A stretch of 32,758 bases of DNA from Leptospiraceae bacterium (GTDB taxonomy: Bacteria > Spirochaetota > Leptospiria > Leptospirales > Leptospiraceae), in assembly GCA_025360185.1 (NCBI GenBank), contig JANYCR010000437.1, forward strand, positions 1 to 32,758. The letters are read 5' to 3'. Shown piece by piece: positions 6,699 to 26,169 of this stretch. The notes beneath the pieces were generated by a model, which saw only the letters and a list, made by a program, of their open reading frames with translations, was not told the DNA's origin and made no database searches. The position numbers were made by a program, and so were the translations under genes. Within the stretch, counting starts at the first letter, position 1. Each line of letters opens with the position of its first letter.

Positions 6699-7211
6699 AT
6701 GACAAAAGCTACTTTGAATAGAACACTTTATAAACAATATAAATCAGAGCAAAAACGATATAGGCTGTTCGTCCCAATCTTACGCTATTTCGGTTTTTCG
6801 ATGCTCGGTCTGTATCTATACCTTCTCTTTAGCCAGAAGGGTTTAGATACAAAGTATTTTCTTTTAAATATCTATGCAATGTATTGCAACGCATCTGTAA
6901 TGATTTTATTTCAATATTATAAAATTCCCCAAATCTTCAAGAATCTTTTCTCGCAGAATGAATTGCTTGTAATTGAGTCTTACCGGGTAATCAATGATAA
7001 CCGCAATGAAATCTATTGCTCATTCTTGATGGAACTTTATGGAAGAAATTATAAGCCCGAACAAATGAATCACAATCTTACAGAAATGAAAGATTTGATT
7101 TTGTCCCTAGAAACACTTGACTGGGAAAAGATTGGAAGAGTATACTTCAGTGTTTTCTTTTTAATTTCCGGTTTTTTATTTTACTTGCTATACCCGTTAG
7201 AATCCATCTAG
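6699..7211 (+). CDS. Small membrane protein, unknown function
   Basis: I recognise no family. The protein has 170 residues and three likely membrane helices, near residues 24-43, 52-70 and 145-166. Between the second and third helix is a soluble segment of about 75 residues rich in Asn and Glu. The basic N-terminus suggests a cytoplasmic start. The gene ends inside the last four bases of the convergent phosphatase gene, so the two 3' ends overlap (7208-7211). No strong Shine-Dalgarno sequence is visible upstream of the ATG. Confidence 0.6.
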   Translation: MTKATLNRTLYKQYKSEQKRYRLFVPILRYFGFSMLGLYLYLLFSQKGLDTKYFLLNIYAMYCNASVMILFQYYKIPQIFKNLFSQNELLVIESYRVINDNRNEIYCSFLMELYGRNYKPEQMNHNLTEMKDLILSLETLDWEKIGRVYFSVFFLISGFLFYLLYPLESI

Positions 7212-9637
7212 TCTATATATTTTTTTACAATTTGATTTCTCGGGTCGAGTCTAAAAATACTATTGATGAGTGTCTCAACCCTATTAAATTTTGAAATACG
7301 GTAATAAGATTCAATGAGAGTAATTAGATTAGAAATATTTTTTGGCTGACGAATTCTAACGCGTTCTGAAAATTCTATCGACTCTTCGAAACGTTCCAAC
7401 CTTTGTAGGCATTCCGCGATTAGCTGCATTGAAATAGTGTCTTCTGGATGGAATTCTAAGTAGCGAGACAAATGCTTGTATGCCATTGAGTCATTTTTTG
7501 TTGTAATAAAACCAATCCCAATTTCATTATCCTCTAGCGATTCCGTTTCTTCCTCCCCAATCCATTCAAGGCGTATCATGGAAAAATCATCAATTACAAC
7601 TCCTCTATCTTGGATCAATCGAAATATTTCTGATAGCTCTGCCTGTGCTCGTTCAATAACTTTTAGGATGAAAGTTTCATCTCCGATCATTTTCTCATTT
7701 TGATTTTCATCCTGAATTAAAATATCATCCCTTCCATCAGAACCATTGAGGATAATATCACCTTTGCGTAAAACAAATGTTTGCACTCGAATAAAACCAT
7801 CCGTTAACTGAGAACCTAGTTTTTGATATAAATTATTATCACCAATGAATACTGCTTTTCTATCCCTGAATAAAATTGTCTGAGGATGCTCTGCGTTGAT
7901 AAAATACATAAGACCTGATTTCTCATCTACTAATCCAAGAACAATCGAAACAAGCATCGAACCTTCAAAGCTTTCAAAAACTTTATGTAGTTCTACAAAA
8001 GAATTCTTAAGCCATCTTTCAGGCGACATCTGTCTTACCATATCAGAGTAAGAAGTTCTTTCAATAATTGATTTGAAGACTGCGCCTAATACTAATACTC
8101 CTCCGGCTCCTTGCATAGATTTTCCCATTGCATCTGCATTAAGAAAAACAGTCATTTTACGACCCGTTAGATAAATACTTTCTGTCTTACAAATATCGCC
8201 TCCGATTTCGCTTACCCTATCACGAAATTCAAATTCTTTTTTTTGTTTTATAAAGAATTCTACTTTCACTGAATCTTGTTTCGCGTTATTACTTGCAAGT
8301 GATTCAATCAGGAGGGATGTTAGAAAATAATCTGCATCCTGTTGGGTTTTCAATTCTTTAATTTCATTAAAACTCTCTTCTAGTTTTTTTGTTCTGTCCT
8401 CTACACGCTTCTCCAAAGTTTCATTGAGTTGTTCTGTTTTGTCATGCACCTCGGTAAAATTTTTAGCAAGTATTGCAGCGATTCCGAGTATATAAAAACA
8501 AAATCCATACTTGGTCAAAGAAATCCCTGTTCCCAAAAATTTAGCATCTACTAAATCAAATAAAGCAGTAGTACACAATAATATCGTACCAATGAGAATT
8601 CTTTTTGCAGAAGGAATTTTATCTTTTATTCCTTTATACATTAAATGAAACATCAAAGGAACTCCAAAAAAAAGTGCCGTTACCTGCCAGAAAGAAAGAA
8701 TTCGTTTAAAAATAAATTCAGGGGTAAATAAGGTAATAACCGCTATAAGCAAATGATAAAAAGTTAAAAATTTTACTTTCTTACTTACCTTATTATAAAA
8801 TAAAAATTCAGTGAATAAAAAAATTGTCATGAAATCTATATATAGAGCAGAGTATTCAATCCTCCGAATTAAAAGGGTATCGAGTCCTAATTCAAAAATT
8901 GTATTTGTTCTAGTTAAAATATAAATACCAATGAGAAGACTGTAGATGCCAAAATAAAGATTATAACGTTCTTTTCTTCGATTTAGAAATAGGAATAAAT
9001 GATAAAATGCTACGACAAAATAAATCCCTATCAATATTAAAGTAGAGCGCTCCTGCCGTTCTTTCTTTAAATCATCATAAAAACCAAATTCATTTCCTTT
9101 CGTAAAATAAAGTCCTGTATTATTTGAGCCGGGTCTTCCCCAGAGATGAATTAATAACCGATTCTTTTCTTTATGTAGATAAGATTGATTTACCTCAAAG
9201 ACCTGTCCTCTTAATGCGCGATGTAATAGAATTTTACCACCTTCTACTTTTCCTTCGTTAGCAATTTGCACTCCGTTCAAATAAACTTCGAATACTTCGC
9301 CTACTCCCCCGATTGCAATTCCCTTGTGTCGCAAACTTTGAAATAAGTCTTCAGTTAAGTCAAACTCCACTAGTAGGCTATAATCTGCGAGCAATTCACT
9401 TGATGAAAAATATTCCCATGGATAGAGAGGAAATTTTTTTACTTCCTTCCAGTCTTTATCGACTTGAAAATCTTTACTAATATAGATTTCAGAAAATCCT
9501 TCTCTGATATTCCAGACTTTCGGAGCACATCGTGAATCTTTACAAATCTCCAATAGATCAACGGAATCTTTTGCATATAATGATAAAGACCATGAGAAAT
9601 AAAAAAATATATAGGATATAAGTATGCGGAGTTTCAT
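7208..9637 (-). CDS. 7TM-DISM receptor with SpoIIE/PP2C phosphatase and TPR
   Basis: This is an 809-residue membrane signalling protein. In order it has a signal peptide (to about 22), a jelly-roll-like 7TM-DISM sensor domain outside the membrane (about 30-190), seven membrane helices (about 195-395), a short coiled coil (about 400-450) and a SpoIIE-type PP2C domain (about 460-685). It ends in C-terminal TPR-like helices (about 700-809). The acidic metal ligands are at expected places: GGDICK, NADAMGKS, GSDGRDD and VIDDFSM. The phosphatase is therefore probably active, although the second motif lacks the usual G-H-G. Such proteins usually dephosphorylate anti-sigma-factor antagonists. No antagonist or anti-sigma gene is adjacent, so the target is unknown. 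The 3' end overlaps the convergent gene by 4 nt. Confidence 0.85.
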   Translation of the reverse strand: MKLRILISYIFFYFSWSLSLYAKDSVDLLEICKDSRCAPKVWNIREGFSEIYISKDFQVDKDWKEVKKFPLYPWEYFSSSELLADYSLLVEFDLTEDLFQSLRHKGIAIGGVGEVFEVYLNGVQIANEGKVEGGKILLHRALRGQVFEVNQSYLHKEKNRLLIHLWGRPGSNNTGLYFTKGNEFGFYDDLKKERQERSTLILIGIYFVVAFYHLFLFLNRRKERYNLYFGIYSLLIGIYILTRTNTIFELGLDTLLIRRIEYSALYIDFMTIFLFTEFLFYNKVSKKVKFLTFYHLLIAVITLFTPEFIFKRILSFWQVTALFFGVPLMFHLMYKGIKDKIPSAKRILIGTILLCTTALFDLVDAKFLGTGISLTKYGFCFYILGIAAILAKNFTEVHDKTEQLNETLEKRVEDRTKKLEESFNEIKELKTQQDADYFLTSLLIESLASNNAKQDSVKVEFFIKQKKEFEFRDRVSEIGGDICKTESIYLTGRKMTVFLNADAMGKSMQGAGGVLVLGAVFKSIIERTSYSDMVRQMSPERWLKNSFVELHKVFESFEGSMLVSIVLGLVDEKSGLMYFINAEHPQTILFRDRKAVFIGDNNLYQKLGSQLTDGFIRVQTFVLRKGDIILNGSDGRDDILIQDENQNEKMIGDETFILKVIERAQAELSEIFRLIQDRGVVIDDFSMIRLEWIGEEETESLEDNEIGIGFITTKNDSMAYKHLSRYLEFHPEDTISMQLIAECLQRLERFEESIEFSERVRIRQPKNISNLITLIESYYRISKFNRVETLINSIFRLDPRNQIVKKYID

Positions 9638-18246: not shown

Positions 18247-19560
18247 CTATTTGGGAACGGGCTCTGTATAAATATCAGGCTCTGGTTCGGGTATAGGTTT
18301 GATTACGTCAGTGGTTTTTACTTTTTTCCCTTTTTTAGTCTTTGGATTTTCCTCTTCCATCGGAATTGGTTTTGTTTCGGACTCTGGTTTATCTTCCTGG
18401 TTGTTTTTAATTTCTGTTTTTGACTCAGGCGTCTCACTTGGAGCATCAACACTAGGGTTTAAATATATCTTTTCAATTTCTCCTTTTACAGAAAAATCAA
18501 TCGAACGTAAACTCCCTTCCACTGGATAAAAACTAAACCGCTTATATTTAGAAAGCTCAGCTTTTGAGTTTAATTTTTTAATTATTAGGATTTTACGTTT
18601 TGCTTCTTCATTCTTGATTTCAAAAAGAATTTGTATTTCTTTTTCGCGGCTAACGCACCTGCTTCCACAATTTCGGTATTCTTCGATAGAATCACGTAAG
18701 CCTTCTTTATTTGCAGGATCAGTAAGATCAGACTCTACAAATTTATCTACTTTGGCTTTTAGCTCACGCCCCTTTGCATTTTCGATTGGCATTTCTCGAA
18801 AATCAATATATTCACAATTTTTAAAATTGAAATTCTTTCCGATAGAAGGGTTCATCTTTTGATTATTAGCCGTTTCTTCATTTACGAAATCTTTTTTTAA
18901 AGCTTGTAAAACTTTATAATTATCCTTTTCTTCTATCGAGGCAGCCATGAGGGCATCTAGAACTTCTTTACTTTCGGTATATAAAAAGTATCCGGCGATG
19001 ACCTCTCGCTTTTGTGCTTTCGTATAACGCTCTAAATCATAAGGGTAAGGATAACACTCTATTGCCGAATTTTTATCATCCTCTTCTTTATTGGTTGTAG
19101 AATAAATACTACAAGAAGCCTCTACAATAACAGCTTTGTATAATTGATTGAAAATGTTTTTATAAATACCTTGGTATTTTAATCTTTTTGGTTGGAGATT
19201 TTTTTTATCGAACTCGATTATATAATACTGCCCGCCACAGTTCAGATTAATTGCCTTCGTAAGAAAAAAAGTATCGTCTGCTCCAGTTTTATCCTTTACT
19301 TTACGATCAAAAAACCATGTGCAGGATTCGATTGGAAATTTATTAATTTTACCAACAATGGATTGTGTTTCGTTCTCGACAAATTTTAATATTTCAATTT
19401 TGCCTGGTTGTTCCTCGCTCACGACCGAATACTCACGAATTAACTCTTTATAGAGCTTAGGATTTTGCTTTTTAATATCTACCGGTTTGGCTGCACAATT
19501 TAAAATTAGCATTGTGCAAGTAATAGCAATGACTAGAAAATGGATTTTATTTAATCTCAT
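18247..19560 (-). CDS. Putative lipoprotein with Pro/Glu/Lys-rich tail
   Basis: The protein has 437 residues and no recognised family. The signal peptide ends TMLILNC with the lipidated Cys at residue 22. The body contains several Cys residues (ESCTWFF, LNCGG, FKNCEY, YRNCGSRC) and is otherwise charged and helical. From about residue 360 to the end it becomes a low-complexity tail rich in Pro, Glu, Thr and Lys, ending PIPEPEPDIYTEPVPK. Such a tail suggests an extended spacer or wall-associated segment. It is divergent from the cyclase-like gene at 19706, with 145 nt between the two starts that should hold both promoters. Confidence 0.7.
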   Translation of the reverse strand: MRLNKIHFLVIAITCTMLILNCAAKPVDIKKQNPKLYKELIREYSVVSEEQPGKIEILKFVENETQSIVGKINKFPIESCTWFFDRKVKDKTGADDTFFLTKAINLNCGGQYYIIEFDKKNLQPKRLKYQGIYKNIFNQLYKAVIVEASCSIYSTTNKEEDDKNSAIECYPYPYDLERYTKAQKREVIAGYFLYTESKEVLDALMAASIEEKDNYKVLQALKKDFVNEETANNQKMNPSIGKNFNFKNCEYIDFREMPIENAKGRELKAKVDKFVESDLTDPANKEGLRDSIEEYRNCGSRCVSREKEIQILFEIKNEEAKRKILIIKKLNSKAELSKYKRFSFYPVEGSLRSIDFSVKGEIEKIYLNPSVDAPSETPESKTEIKNNQEDKPESETKPIPMEEENPKTKKGKKVKTTDVIKPIPEPEPDIYTEPVPK

Positions 19561-19705: not shown

Positions 19706-21844
19706 ATGCTTCGATTAAAAGGGTTTTCTATATTATTTATTATTCTTTTCGTCTATAGCTGTAATATTGGCTTAGTATTTAAGGATTCTCCAAAAGTAGA
19801 AAATGGAATTTTAAATCTTACTTTTTGGGACTTTGAAAAGAAAGGTGCGATTAACTTAGAAGGAAATTGGGAAATCTACTGGAAAAAATTAATTCGTCCT
19901 AATACTATAAATTCATTTGCGACAGAAAATCCCTCAGAATATTTCGAATTTCCTAGTTCCTGGCGGGGGAGATTGCTTGACAATGAAATTGCAACTAAAA
20001 ATGGATATGCAACGTTTCGTGTAAAAATATTACTGCCCGATCAAAATAATAAAAAGAGAAAAAAATTAGCACTTCGTATGAAGGAGCAAGCAACTGCATA
20101 TGAACTTTATGTGGATAATGAGCTATTAGCCCAAAAGGGAAAAGTTGGGAGTTCTGCAAAAGAATCCATCCCAGGTTATGGAACCATTACTGTTTTTTTT
20201 GAAACAGAAAAAGAAACTTTAGAAATAGTTTTATTGGTTTCCAATTATCATCATAGAAATGGAGGCATTTGGAGTGTCCCGATTCTTGGAATACATGAGC
20301 ATATTCAACAATTGAAATACGAGCGGAATTCTATAGAGTTCCTTTTGGGGGGAAGTATTTTAATAATGACTCTTTACCACTTCATGCTTTTTTTATTTCG
20401 TAAAAACGATTTCACGAGTTTTTATTTTGCGTTATTTTGTCTAATAACTCTTATGCGCATAATTTCAACCGGCGAAATTATGTTAGTGCAGTTAATACCT
20501 AATATCCACTATGAAATTATAACGAAGTTTGAGTATTTTTCCTTTTTTATTCTTGCTCCTTTGTTTTTTAAATTCTTTCAAGAGCTTTTTCCTAATCAAG
20601 TATCAGCACGATTGGTAAAAATAAACCTAGTCATTGGTGGCATTCTAGGGATGATTGTTTGTTTTTCCAATTTAAGAATCTATAATTACTTTGTAGATTT
20701 CAATTATTTGATGATTATTCTCACCATGATTATAGTTTATTATTATCAAATAATAAACATTATCAAACGAGTAGAGGATTCTGTGACTATCTTTCTTTGC
20801 ACAAATGTCCTTATAATTTTTATTCTAAATGATATTTTATATAACCTAAAATTCATTATAACCGGTGAATTTATGCAAATTGGAGTTTTTATATTTCTAT
20901 TTGCGCAATCGGTGATCCTATCGAGACGCTTTTCTCTTGCTTTCAGAGACATCGAAAAACTTTCTAATAACTTAAGTATAATAAATAATGCTTATAGTAA
21001 TTTTGTTCCAAAAGAATTTTTAAAAATTCTAAATAAAGAAAGTATCATTGATGTTTCGCTAGGCAATCTTGTCCAGAAAGATGTCACAATACTCTTTAGT
21101 GGAATACGCGGATTTACCTCTATAGCGGAAAAAGTAGACTCGGTAGAAATTTTTTCAATTCTAAATAAATACTATATGGGTGTAACAGCCATTATCCAAA
21201 GAAACAAAGGATTTATAGATAAATTTATTGGAGATGAAATCGTAGTCCTATTTCCAGAATCCGCCAAAGATGCATTAATTGCAGCGGGTGAAATCAATCA
21301 ATATCTACAAGAGTTTAATCAATCCCAAACTATGCTCAAAAAATTAAACTTCAAAATCGGGATAGGTATACATTCCGGCTCTGTTACTCTGGGAACACTT
21401 GGCGGAAAAGAAAGAATGGATACAACGGTAATAGGCAATGCAGTTGGTATTGCTAAAAAAATCGAAACTCTAACGAAATCCTACTCTGTTCCTATTATTA
21501 TATCTTCTGAAACATATTCTTTACTCGTAGATGATTTAAAAATAAATTCTAGGGAGATTGAACATTTGCGAGTTGGTGGTAACGATGGATTTATTACTAT
21601 TTATGAATACTTCGGCTCAGATGATCCAATAACAATCGAGAAAAAAAAATCTGTAGCTTCCGAATATTTTAGAGCACTGACGCTATATCGAGGAGGATTT
21701 ATTAAAAAGGCAAAAGATTTATTTTCGCTTTGTCAATCCCTACTCCCTAATGATCCCATTTACTCAATGCATATGAATCGCTGCAATGATAGTCTACTTG
21801 GTAATGAAGGTTCTGACTTATCTAATCCATTAGGCAAATTATAG
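19706..21844 (+). CDS. 7TM-DISM receptor with degenerate class III cyclase domain
   Basis: The protein has 712 residues. It comprises a lipoprotein-like or signal segment (VYSCN, Cys at 19), an extracytoplasmic jelly-roll-like sensor domain (about 30-200), seven membrane helices (about 212-405), a linker, a class III nucleotidyl cyclase domain (about 455-630) and a short TPR-like tail. The cyclase fold is clear (FSGIRGFTS, DKFIGDE, TTVIGNAVGIAKK), but key residues differ. The first metal Asp is Gly466, the purine-selecting position is Asn578, the transition-state Asn is Gly581 and the transition-state Arg is Lys585. Lys506 and the second metal Asp510 remain. It is therefore probably a non-catalytic or ligand-binding pseudo-cyclase. 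It leads a run with a histidine kinase and a GGDEF regulator, 19 nt before the kinase. Confidence 0.85.
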   Translation: MLRLKGFSILFIILFVYSCNIGLVFKDSPKVENGILNLTFWDFEKKGAINLEGNWEIYWKKLIRPNTINSFATENPSEYFEFPSSWRGRLLDNEIATKNGYATFRVKILLPDQNNKKRKKLALRMKEQATAYELYVDNELLAQKGKVGSSAKESIPGYGTITVFFETEKETLEIVLLVSNYHHRNGGIWSVPILGIHEHIQQLKYERNSIEFLLGGSILIMTLYHFMLFLFRKNDFTSFYFALFCLITLMRIISTGEIMLVQLIPNIHYEIITKFEYFSFFILAPLFFKFFQELFPNQVSARLVKINLVIGGILGMIVCFSNLRIYNYFVDFNYLMIILTMIIVYYYQIINIIKRVEDSVTIFLCTNVLIIFILNDILYNLKFIITGEFMQIGVFIFLFAQSVILSRRFSLAFRDIEKLSNNLSIINNAYSNFVPKEFLKILNKESIIDVSLGNLVQKDVTILFSGIRGFTSIAEKVDSVEIFSILNKYYMGVTAIIQRNKGFIDKFIGDEIVVLFPESAKDALIAAGEINQYLQEFNQSQTMLKKLNFKIGIGIHSGSVTLGTLGGKERMDTTVIGNAVGIAKKIETLTKSYSVPIIISSETYSLLVDDLKINSREIEHLRVGGNDGFITIYEYFGSDDPITIEKKKSVASEYFRALTLYRGGFIKKAKDLFSLCQSLLPNDPIYSMHMNRCNDSLLGNEGSDLSNPLGKL

Positions 21845-21863
21845 AAAGGGTAACGTATGGCTA

Positions 21864-24800
21864 ATGGCATCTACTAAATATTACATCACAACCGTCAGTT
21901 GGTATAATCAATTAAGGATTAAAAGTAAAGCTCTCGTTGGAATCTCCGTTATTTGCCTGTTAATTTTAATCGGCATCTCCTTATCTATTCATCTTGTTAA
22001 TAAGATTCATGAAGAAACAAAGGAAATTCATAACAAATGGATGCAGAGCATTCTAAAAATTTCAGAAATGCTAGATCAGCTAGATCACATTGGCAAATTA
22101 GAATCAAAACATATTTTGACAAATAGCCTAGAAGAAAAATCAAATATTGAAGAACAATTGCGTCTCCTACAAAAAGATTTTTTAACAAATAAAATCTATT
22201 ACAAAACTCTCAGCTTCGACAAAGAAGAGAAAAGCGTATATATTAGATTTTCACAAAATCTCGAACAATATTTCATAGCTCAAAATGAACTCATTGAAAA
22301 ATCAAGATCACCAAATAAACAAGGCATTACAATTCTATCAGAAAAATCAAAATCTCAAATTGACAGAGTTAATTCAAATCTTCACGAAATGCTCAACTTA
22401 AATAAGCAGGGCGAAATTGAGTCAAACCAAATTGTGGATAATTCATATTATTCTCTTTTATTCCAGATGGTACTTACATCAATTTTCACAGTAGTATTTA
22501 TTTATCTAGTCATCTATTATACATTTAAACAATTTGTTTTTCCGCTTCAATTGGCAGAGTCTGCTACAAACCGTATTGCAAAAGGAGACTGGAAAGTTAG
22601 AATAGAATACGAATCAAAAGATGAACTCGGAAAATTCATTAAAACATTTAACCAAATGGTAGAAGATCATCGAAAAATTGATGCAGAGAAAACTAAAATC
22701 GAAAAAGAAGTCAGAAAAAATGAAGAGCTTTTTAGAACTTTAATTGAGATTTCTCCTGATGCAATATTGCTCATTGGATTAGACTACTCTATACTTTGGG
22801 CTAATAACAATATGCTTCGAATGTTTGGTTATGATTCGATAGAGGAATTACGCGAGTTACATGCCGTGGATTTTGCAATTCCTCCTGAAAAGGAAAAAAT
22901 TGCTTCGATAATGAGATCACTACTAAGCTCGGACTATAGCAATTATGCATATGAAAGTATGGCAATTAGAAAAGACAAAACTACTTTCCCAATAGAAATT
23001 CAACATGCGATTTATCAAAATGAAAATGTTAATGTCGGTATACTTACCAATATCCGCGATATAACTGAACGAAAATTAGCAGAAGAAGCACTCATCGAAA
23101 ACGAAGAAAGATATAGAATTATTACCGAAAATATGGCAGACGTTATTTTGGTTATCGATGCGAACTCAATGAAGCTACTCTATATTAGCCCTTCTATTAA
23201 AAATCTAACCGATTATTCAGTATTAGAAATCATGTCTCAATCATATAAAGATTTTTTAGCTCCTGCCTCCTTAAAATATGCACAAAAAACTTTTCCACTT
23301 CGATTGAAACGGTTATCAGCAGGTAAAAAATCATTGAAAGGAATTTATGTCGATGAACTCGAGCAATATAAAAAAGACAGAACCGCGATTTGGACAGAAG
23401 TTGTATCGCGCTACATAATGAATCAAAATACCGGCAATCTGGAAGTTCATGCCGTTATGCGTAATATCACTGAAAGAAAAAAAATCGAAAAGGAAATAAA
23501 TGAAAAAAGTCAAATGCTCGCCGGTATTCTTGCTAACATGCCAGTAATTGTCTTTCGCGTAGATCAAAATGGAATCATAACACAAAGCACAGGCGCTGGT
23601 TTAAAAAAAATGGGCTTATTCGACAACCAAGCAGTCAATGTAAATATCTTTGAGGTTTATCATGAGTTTGCGCCCGAGTTTCATAAAGCATTAGATGGTG
23701 AACCTCAAGTATTTATTTCGAATGGTCTTTACAATGACGGGATTGAATGGTTTTTCCAAAATTATTTTTTCCTCGACGAGTCAACAGGAGGGCTTATTGG
23801 CTTTGGGCTTGATATCACCGAGCAAGTAGTCGCCAAAAAAGCTGCCGAGTCTGCAAGTAAAATTAAAGGTGAATTTCTAGCAAATATCAGCCATGAAATT
23901 AGAACTCCAATGAACGCAATCATAGGCTTTACTGAAATATTAAAAGGTTCCATCTCAGACGAAATTCAGAAAAAATATTTAGAAAACATTGTATCAAGTG
24001 GAAAAACGTTATTAGCCATAATCAATGACATTCTCGATTTGTCAAAAGTAGAATCGGGGAAACTTGAGCTAGAACTCTCTCCTGTAAATATTATGAGCGT
24101 ATTTGGAGAATTAAGAGATATTTTTTCCCAAAAATTATCTGAGAAAAATTTAGATTTTCAAATTATAGTTGACCCAAGCCTTCCTAAAGAGATAATTCTC
24201 GACGAAATTAGGTTTCGGCAGATTTTTTTAAATTTACTGAGTAACGCAATTAAGTTTACAGATCAGGGCTATATTCGATTAACCGCAAGACCGGAAAAAA
24301 AGAAGGACACTATACAATATATGGATTTAATTTTTACAGTAGAAGATACTGGTATCGGTGTACCTGTTGAAGACCAAAGTTTGATCTTCGAAGCATTCAC
24401 ACAACAAAAAGGTCAGAGCCATTCTAAGTATGGTGGAACGGGACTAGGGCTTGCTATTTCCAATCGACTCGTCAAGCTTATGAATGGAGTAATCTCTATC
24501 AAAAGTGAAGTAGGTAAAGGAAGCATTTTTGAAATAATTTTAAATAGCGCACTAATTTCTAAAGATGTCTCCCCAAAAAATCAAACACAAATAAGCGAAA
24601 GCAAACCAATAGTTTCCACAAAATCGTCTTCCGAAAAAATTGCACGAATCCTACTTAATGAAGAAGGCATAAAGAATTTAAAACCTTTACTTGAAGAAAT
24701 GAAAACAGACTTATATAACGAATGGGAAAAATTATCTAACATTTCAAGTATAAATGAAATTGAAGAGTTTGCTTATAAAATAAAATATCTAGGAGAAAAA

Positions 24801-24938
24801 TATAATTATCCCCCTTTTATAAAATATTCAGATAGTTTACAGGCAAAAGCACTATTGTTCGATATGAATTCACTTTTGATTTTACTTAAGGAATATCCGG
24901 AACTTTTAGAAGACTTAAGGTCAAACTATGTTAACTAA
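21864..24938 (+). CDS. Membrane histidine kinase, HAMP-PAS-PAS-PAS-HisKA-HATPase
   Basis: This sensor kinase has 1024 residues. Membrane helix 1 is at about 23-45 and helix 2 at about 198-220, flanking a helical periplasmic domain of about 150 residues that resembles four-helix chemoreceptor modules. HAMP follows (220-275), then three PAS domains (about 288-405, 413-540, 548-660), the first two closing with RDITERK and RNITERK. HisKA has FLANISHEIRTPMNAI with the phospho-acceptor His677. The ATPase has NLLSNAIKF (Asn794), VEDTGIGV and GGTGLGLAIS. All catalytic boxes are intact. There is no receiver domain, and a helical extension of about 110 residues closes the protein. The 3' end overlaps the response regulator gene by 11 nt, which identifies the likely partner. 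Confidence 0.93.
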   Translation: MASTKYYITTVSWYNQLRIKSKALVGISVICLLILIGISLSIHLVNKIHEETKEIHNKWMQSILKISEMLDQLDHIGKLESKHILTNSLEEKSNIEEQLRLLQKDFLTNKIYYKTLSFDKEEKSVYIRFSQNLEQYFIAQNELIEKSRSPNKQGITILSEKSKSQIDRVNSNLHEMLNLNKQGEIESNQIVDNSYYSLLFQMVLTSIFTVVFIYLVIYYTFKQFVFPLQLAESATNRIAKGDWKVRIEYESKDELGKFIKTFNQMVEDHRKIDAEKTKIEKEVRKNEELFRTLIEISPDAILLIGLDYSILWANNNMLRMFGYDSIEELRELHAVDFAIPPEKEKIASIMRSLLSSDYSNYAYESMAIRKDKTTFPIEIQHAIYQNENVNVGILTNIRDITERKLAEEALIENEERYRIITENMADVILVIDANSMKLLYISPSIKNLTDYSVLEIMSQSYKDFLAPASLKYAQKTFPLRLKRLSAGKKSLKGIYVDELEQYKKDRTAIWTEVVSRYIMNQNTGNLEVHAVMRNITERKKIEKEINEKSQMLAGILANMPVIVFRVDQNGIITQSTGAGLKKMGLFDNQAVNVNIFEVYHEFAPEFHKALDGEPQVFISNGLYNDGIEWFFQNYFFLDESTGGLIGFGLDITEQVVAKKAAESASKIKGEFLANISHEIRTPMNAIIGFTEILKGSISDEIQKKYLENIVSSGKTLLAIINDILDLSKVESGKLELELSPVNIMSVFGELRDIFSQKLSEKNLDFQIIVDPSLPKEIILDEIRFRQIFLNLLSNAIKFTDQGYIRLTARPEKKKDTIQYMDLIFTVEDTGIGVPVEDQSLIFEAFTQQKGQSHSKYGGTGLGLAISNRLVKLMNGVISIKSEVGKGSIFEIILNSALISKDVSPKNQTQISESKPIVSTKSSSEKIARILLNEEGIKNLKPLLEEMKTDLYNEWEKLSNISSINEIEEFAYKIKYLGEKYNYPPFIKYSDSLQAKALLFDMNSLLILLKEYPELLEDLRSNYVN

Positions 24939-26169
24939 TTTTAAAAATGCTTATATATTAATCGTTGACGATACACCTAAAAATATTCAACTCCTTGGCA
25001 CTATTTTAAAAAATATTGGTTACAAGATTATCGTCGCGACTAACGGATTGCAAGCACTGGGAATTTTAGAAAAAATTAAACCTGATTTAATTCTTCTTGA
25101 TGTTATGATGCCTGAACTGGATGGGTATGAAACTTGTAAAAGAATAAAGGCAACGGATAATTTAAAAAATATTCCCATCATTTTTTTAACAGCGAAAACT
25201 CAACCAGAAGATATTGTAAAGGGCTTTGACTTGGGCGCAGTGGATTATATCGTTAAACCTTTCAACTCTAGTGAATTAGCGGCAAGAGTAAAAACACATT
25301 TGGAACTCAAGTTTAATCAGGATATGCTACAAACTCTACTCAATTTTCAGCGAGACATGGTCTTAATGACTGATGGAGAAAAAGTTATTGCGGCTAATTA
25401 TAGTTTTTTGCAATTTACAGATTCAAAAAATATAGAAGAGTTTAATCAAAAATATCCAAACATAATGACTTTCCTTGATTTCGGAACTGGCTCCGACAAG
25501 GATAAGAATTCAAGTTTAAAACTTCAAAGACTTCCAAACGATGAAGAGTTTCAAGTTAAAATGAAAACAGCAAATGATATAACTCTAATTTTTAGAATCA
25601 AACAAAATATTGTTCCGGAAAAAGAAGTTAGTATCTTGAGTCTAACAGATATTACCCAATTAGAAAATCAAAAAAATAGCTTAGAAGAAAAAGCAAGTAT
25701 CGACGAACTAACAAAAGTATACAATAGAACAAAATTCCAACAACTTTTTAAGCAAACGATAGAAGAAAACAAAATTAACCCTAGATCAATTTGTCTGGTA
25801 ATTTTCGACATCGATCATTTTAAAAAAATAAATGATACGTATGGTCATAATAAAGGCGATGAAGTTTTAGTAAATATTTCGCAGTTCATTAAAGCTCATA
25901 TTCGGATGTCAGATATTCTTTGTCGATGGGGTGGAGAAGAGTTTACACTATTACTTGTAGGTTCCAATATTGAAGACGGAATTAAAATTTGTGAAAAAAT
26001 TCGGATGCTCGTAGAGAAATATCCATTTATTGAAGATCGTCCTGTCACGATGAGCATGGGAATTAGTCAATATTTACTAACAGATACATTAGAATCTTTT
26101 GTGGCTAGGGCGGATAACGCTCTTTATAGAGCAAAAAAAAGCGGACGAAATAGGACAGAGAGAAATTGA
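24928..26169 (+). CDS. Response regulator with GGDEF diguanylate cyclase
   Basis: The protein has 413 residues. The receiver domain (about 8-125) has Asp14/Asp15, the phospho-acceptor Asp58 in LILLDVMMPE, the Thr in FLTAK and Lys110 in VKPF. A middle region (about 135-245) looks like a worn PAS domain ending SLTDITQLENQKN. The GGDEF domain (about 250-413) starts DELTKVYNRTKFQQL, carries FDIDHFKKINDTYGHNKGD, and has GGEEF at 335-339. An RxxD product-inhibition site (Arg326-Asp329) lies five residues upstream. The domain is therefore predicted to make c-di-GMP and to be feedback-inhibited. It is most likely phosphorylated by the overlapping upstream kinase. Confidence 0.93.
   Translation: MLTNFKNAYILIVDDTPKNIQLLGTILKNIGYKIIVATNGLQALGILEKIKPDLILLDVMMPELDGYETCKRIKATDNLKNIPIIFLTAKTQPEDIVKGFDLGAVDYIVKPFNSSELAARVKTHLELKFNQDMLQTLLNFQRDMVLMTDGEKVIAANYSFLQFTDSKNIEEFNQKYPNIMTFLDFGTGSDKDKNSSLKLQRLPNDEEFQVKMKTANDITLIFRIKQNIVPEKEVSILSLTDITQLENQKNSLEEKASIDELTKVYNRTKFQQLFKQTIEENKINPRSICLVIFDIDHFKKINDTYGHNKGDEVLVNISQFIKAHIRMSDILCRWGGEEFTLLLVGSNIEDGIKICEKIRMLVEKYPFIEDRPVTMSMGISQYLLTDTLESFVARADNALYRAKKSGRNRTERN

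Follow-up and report, generated by a model that had tools for sequence, protein, structure and literature searches.

A receptor with a predicted class III pseudo-cyclase domain, conserved beside histidine kinase and diguanylate cyclase genes in a genus of Leptospiraceae

Introduction

In the dimers formed by class III nucleotide cyclases, one subunit supplies the two metal-binding aspartates and the other supplies the purine-specifying pair together with the transition-state asparagine and arginine. The C1/C2 pair of mammalian adenylyl cyclase includes a degenerate class III site that is retained for regulation, with one complementary half-site in each domain, and pseudo-kinases and pseudo-receivers are also familiar. 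The class III adenylyl cyclases CyaB, CyaC and OaPAC (PDB 3r5g, 1wc1 and 4yus) have the fold that is of interest here; in CyaB and OaPAC the purine positions hold Lys and Thr. The class III guanylyl cyclase XC_0250 of Xanthomonas is active with Leu and Ala in place of the Asn/Arg pair, whereas alanine at either of its metal aspartates abolishes activity (PMC3770947), and Ma1120 is active with Ala for the Asn (PMC4215837). Isolated bacterial class III members with missing residues have already been listed, such as Rv2561, which has one Asp (PMC4886424). Conserved bacterial pseudo-cyclases nevertheless seem to be little described, as a literature search for them returned no description.

The receptor described here was found in a 32,758-nucleotide stretch of a Leptospiraceae genome (the window). 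It shares the fold of CyaB, CyaC and OaPAC, and the purine residues of CyaB and OaPAC, but its first metal Asp, Asn and Arg are replaced. It resembles XC_0250 in lacking the Asn/Arg pair, and differs in that XC_0250 keeps both metal aspartates and is active. In contrast to the mammalian C1/C2 arrangement, both half-sites are damaged within one protein.

Results

The features of the locus are collected in Table 1.

Table 1. Positions of the receptor gene, its domains and catalytic positions, and the neighbouring genes in the window.
Feature	Position	Strand	Evidence
Divergent lipoprotein-like gene	18247..19560	-	ORF; beside four of five receptor copies; association only
7TMR-DISM receptor with class III cyclase-like domain (pseudo-cyclase), 712 aa	19706..21844	+	ORF, Pfam, AF2
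Extracytoplasmic beta-sandwich domain, residues 30-196, DISMED2-like by position	19793..20293	+	Model strands
Seven-helix membrane region and signalling helix, residues 197-431	20294..20998	+	PF07695 (1.9e-20); model helices
Class III cyclase-like domain, residues 455-640	21068..21625	+	PF00211; Foldseek to 3r5g, 1wc1, 2w01
Gly466 (GGA), first metal-Asp position	21101..21103	+	HMM alignment, codons
Lys506, first purine-specifying position, kept	21221..21223	+	HMM alignment, codons
Asp510, second metal Asp, kept	21233..21235	+	HMM alignment, codons
Thr574, true second purine-specifying position, kept	21425..21427	+	Alignments to CyaB/OaPAC and 77 canonical domains
Gly581, transition-state Asn position	21446..21448	+	HMM alignment, codons
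Lys585, transition-state Arg position	21458..21460	+	HMM alignment, codons
Out-of-frame remnant of lost C-terminal receiver (QIIERVTYG* in another frame)	21817..21864	+	DNA alignment, three orthologues
Histidine kinase, 4HB_MCP-HAMP-PAS repeats-HisKA-HATPase, presumed same operon	21864..24938	+	ORF, Pfam
PleD-like receiver-GGDEF diguanylate cyclase, overlaps kinase gene	24928..26169	+	ORF, Pfam

The receptor belongs to the 7TMR-DISM type, as judged by its match to PF07695 (1.9e-20) and by an AlphaFold model (built with 20 relatives; mean pLDDT 83.9) in which the chain runs from an outer beta-sandwich through membrane helices and a long signalling helix to an alpha/beta cyclase domain. Pfam places 7TMR-DISM at residues 208-407 and PF00211 at residues 458-626, both well above cut-off (for PF00211, E = 5.8e-17 and 62.3 bits against a cut-off of 21.9); it returned no DISMED match in residues 30-196, and NCBIfam returned no match for the protein. 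PDB sequence matches of the cyclase domain include CyaB (3r5g, 3.2e-21), Cya2 (2w01), OaPAC and CyaC, while Foldseek relates the modelled domain to CyaB, CyaC, Cya2 and photoactivated cyclases, with a TM score of about 0.8 to CyaB and CyaC, normalised to these single-domain target structures. Homology and predicted fold together indicate that this is a genuine class III fold, as had been recognised in an earlier note made from the DNA alone; the interval given there (21074-21460) spans most of the domain and stops short of its C-terminal strands.

When the six catalytic positions were scored on an HMM alignment of cyclase domains from the window genome and its relatives, the receptor read G466, K506, D510, T574, G581 and K585, so that the pair of metal aspartates is incomplete, the transition-state Asn and Arg are both absent and the purine Lys/Thr pair is present. 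The persistence of Lys506 and Asp510 and the replacements at Gly466, Gly581 and Lys585 were thus correctly read in the earlier note, which, however, counted four of the six positions as replaced by taking Asn578 for the purine-specificity residue. This is ruled out by aligning the receptor with CyaB, OaPAC and the 77 canonical domains of the set, all of which carry Thr at the second purine position; that position lies seven residues before the transition-state Asn in both CyaB (RMDYTIIGREVNLASR) and OaPAC (RDYTILGDAVNVAAR), and corresponds to Thr574. Position 578 is the D/N of an 'IGD' motif, is occupied by D, N or R in the aligned proteins and falls outside the six, and the number of replaced positions is therefore three.

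The genus is sampled by four species with five copies of the receptor (one each in the window genome, G001 and G002, and two in G003), all from metagenome assemblies, the orthologue hosts being uncultured Leptospiraceae/Leptospirales bins. The replacements are found in all five, the readout being GKDTGK or, in the most distant copy (50% identity), GKDTMK; Lys506, Asp510 and Thr574 are invariant, and no acidic residue stands beside Gly466 (LFSGIRGF) in any copy. Since the same residues recur in independent assemblies with synonymous differences between their codons, a sequencing error or a local mutation can be ruled out. Orthologues with the canonical residues, which would have spoken for such a local change, were also sought, and no canonical form of this receptor gene was found among 48 genomes of the class and 61 relatives; beyond the five copies, the nearest matches read in the class-wide search are 42-45% identical and all DKDTNR. 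Full-length receptor matches were also recorded at L035 and L036 (in G014 and G018), the aligned span including one in-frame TGA. In a quick-search tree of 111 cyclase domains, the five copies group together as a single clade (SH-aLRT 99) within the DKDTNR domains, and the conversion of the catalytic residues therefore most likely happened once.

The converted domain is under purifying selection, with a pN of 0.13-0.35 against a pS of about 0.7, values similar to those of the kinase and the diguanylate cyclase of the operon, although omega values are rough because dS is saturated. In addition, of the 43 columns whose conservation reaches 85% or more among the 77 canonical domains, 24 show no change in any of the five copies. 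With catalytic residues lost and the gene constrained across species, the receptor gene encodes a predicted pseudoenzyme that is being maintained rather than decaying, in agreement with the earlier proposal of a receptor pseudo-cyclase that is not the product of random decay. The two copies in G003 lie on contigs 154 and 24 in diverged versions of the operon, with receptors 79% and 64% identical to that of the window, which may reflect a duplication or a mixed bin.

The four copies outside the window continue into a C-terminal receiver domain (PF00072 above cut-off in each). Where a phospho-receiver would have its phospho-acceptor Asp, these tails have N, S, S and S. DNA alignment shows that the window receptor has lost this tail by an in-gene deletion of about 0.34 kb with a change of frame at the 3' end, an event confined to the window species among the five copies.

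Downstream of all five copies lie a multi-PAS histidine kinase gene and then a PleD-like receiver-GGDEF gene, the latter cut by the contig end on contig 154 of G003. The phospho-Asp, an RMSD I-site and GGEEF are visible in the sequence of the receiver-GGDEF protein, and the motifs of both kinase and diguanylate cyclase look intact. At the thresholds used, orthologues of these two proteins were found in this genus only, among 61 genomes. The operon holds no cyclase gene, its conserved neighbours being the kinase and the diguanylate cyclase, and the lipoprotein-like gene on the other strand has no Pfam match. A kinase adjoining a receiver-GGDEF protein is the arrangement of PleD-type pathways, to which the window operon adds the pseudo-cyclase receptor. 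Neither this operon nor the pseudo-receiver tail of the orthologues figures in the earlier note.

The window genome (5.8 Mb) contains 79 class III cyclase family matches, a very large expansion, many of them in receptors of the 7TMR-DISM type. In a census drawn from stretches of the genome, in which short fragments left some of the six positions unreadable, the fully readable cyclase domains keep both metal aspartates and the Asn; Arg is replaced by Lys in two paralogues, and the Lys or the purine residue differs in a few. Dozens of the 7TMR-DISM paralogues have complete catalytic residues. These Leptospirales receptors combine PF07695 and PF00211 as does the window receptor, with up to about 37% full-length identity, but those with the complete set read DKDTNR, whereas the window receptor lacks the metal Asp, Asn and Arg.

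Discussion

The reading we favour, at a probability of roughly 60%, is that conversion of the class III cyclase domain into a pseudoenzyme goes back to the ancestor of the genus, and that the domain has since been kept for a structural or regulatory role, signalling by contact to the kinase and from there to c-di-GMP. The receptor has lost residues from both half-sites, namely Asp466 (to Gly) on the metal side, and Asn (to Gly or Met) and Arg (to Lys) on the transition-state side, and its homodimer should therefore be inactive, with no clean complement to offer a partner. Because active cyclases without Asn/Arg exist, as XC_0250 and Ma1120 illustrate, Gly466 is the main argument for inactivity. 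Nucleotide binding is possible, since Lys506, Asp510 and Thr574 are kept.

The receptor is probably a former cAMP-making enzyme turned signalling adaptor, and it most likely signals by contact to the adjacent kinase and diguanylate cyclase. Binding of a signal to the outer beta-sandwich would move the seven-helix bundle and the signalling helix, the movement of which would change the dimer of pseudo-cyclase domains, perhaps with nucleotide still bound; contact between the proteins would relay this change to the neighbouring kinase, and the kinase would phosphorylate the receiver-GGDEF protein and so set c-di-GMP. In the orthologues, the degenerate receiver tail could then act as a docking module unable to take phosphate. 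It is from the fixed gene order alone that an action of the receptor on the kinase, and via the kinase on c-di-GMP, is proposed. Against this reading stands the window copy itself, which has no receiver tail while its operon is still present. The fuller proposal, in which a cAMP-type receptor has lost catalysis and become an allosteric input for the kinase and the diguanylate cyclase, uniting pseudo-cyclase and pseudo-receiver in one protein and driving c-di-GMP rather than cAMP, is put forward tentatively, at clearly less than even odds.

A different role would be that of a regulatory or inhibitory subunit, which pairs with a canonical paralogue in a mixed dimer that keeps one site and has low or modulated activity. 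Class III cyclases function as dimers, and with about 79 cyclase-domain matches and dozens of complete 7TMR-DISM paralogues in the window genome, partners would be plentiful; the retained site would take both metal aspartates from the partner and Lys506 and Thr574 from the window receptor. Loss of Asn/Arg need not make a site inactive (PMC3770947), and an adjacent pair of genes with complementary half-sites does occur in a relative, G006. Yet both half-sites are damaged in the window receptor, unlike in that pair, so that neither half is a clean complement, and the neighbours in its operon are a kinase and a diguanylate cyclase rather than a cyclase. We consider such a mixed dimer unlikely. 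It is less probable still that the domain remains an enzyme, whether a slow cyclase or a catalyst of some other nucleotidyl reaction using one metal site. The invariance of Lys506, Asp510 and Thr574 in all five copies and the active cyclases that lack Asn/Arg are consistent with residual catalysis, but the first metal Asp is Gly in every copy with no acidic neighbour to take its place, and mutation of either Asp in XC_0250 abolished activity (PMC3770947). That the gene is decaying and functionless, particularly in the window species with its lost receiver tail, appears very improbable: the deletion of about 0.34 kb and the frame change at the 3' end are what such decay might leave, but the approximately 690 codons upstream remain intact, with 79% identity to the nearest orthologue, and in comparison with G002 all domains of the window copy give low pN/pS values, close to those that the intact G003 copy gives in the same comparison.

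Pseudo-sites themselves are already known, and what is new here is a receptor pseudo-cyclase found throughout a genus, with a pseudo-receiver tail and adjoining c-di-GMP genes. Returning to the preferred reading of a maintained pseudo-cyclase, the genus-wide operon, the three-residue conversion, the dozens of apparently active paralogues available as controls and the adjacent c-di-GMP genes make it directly testable, and with it the question of whether the cyclase fold is able to work purely as a transmitter of signals, joining cAMP-type receptors to c-di-GMP control.

In G006, two overlapping 7TM-cyclase genes on contig 6 (L125:5879-8020 and L125:8005-9573, both on the minus strand) have complementary half-sites, one protein reading DKDSYV (metal aspartates kept, Asn/Arg lost) and the other QKNTNR (metal aspartates lost, Asn/Arg kept). 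By these residues the pair would fit an obligate bacterial heterodimer that has a single active site, a logic that resembles that of mammalian C1/C2. The window also encodes another 7TMR-DISM receptor (7208-9637, minus strand), the output domain of which is a SpoIIE phosphatase.
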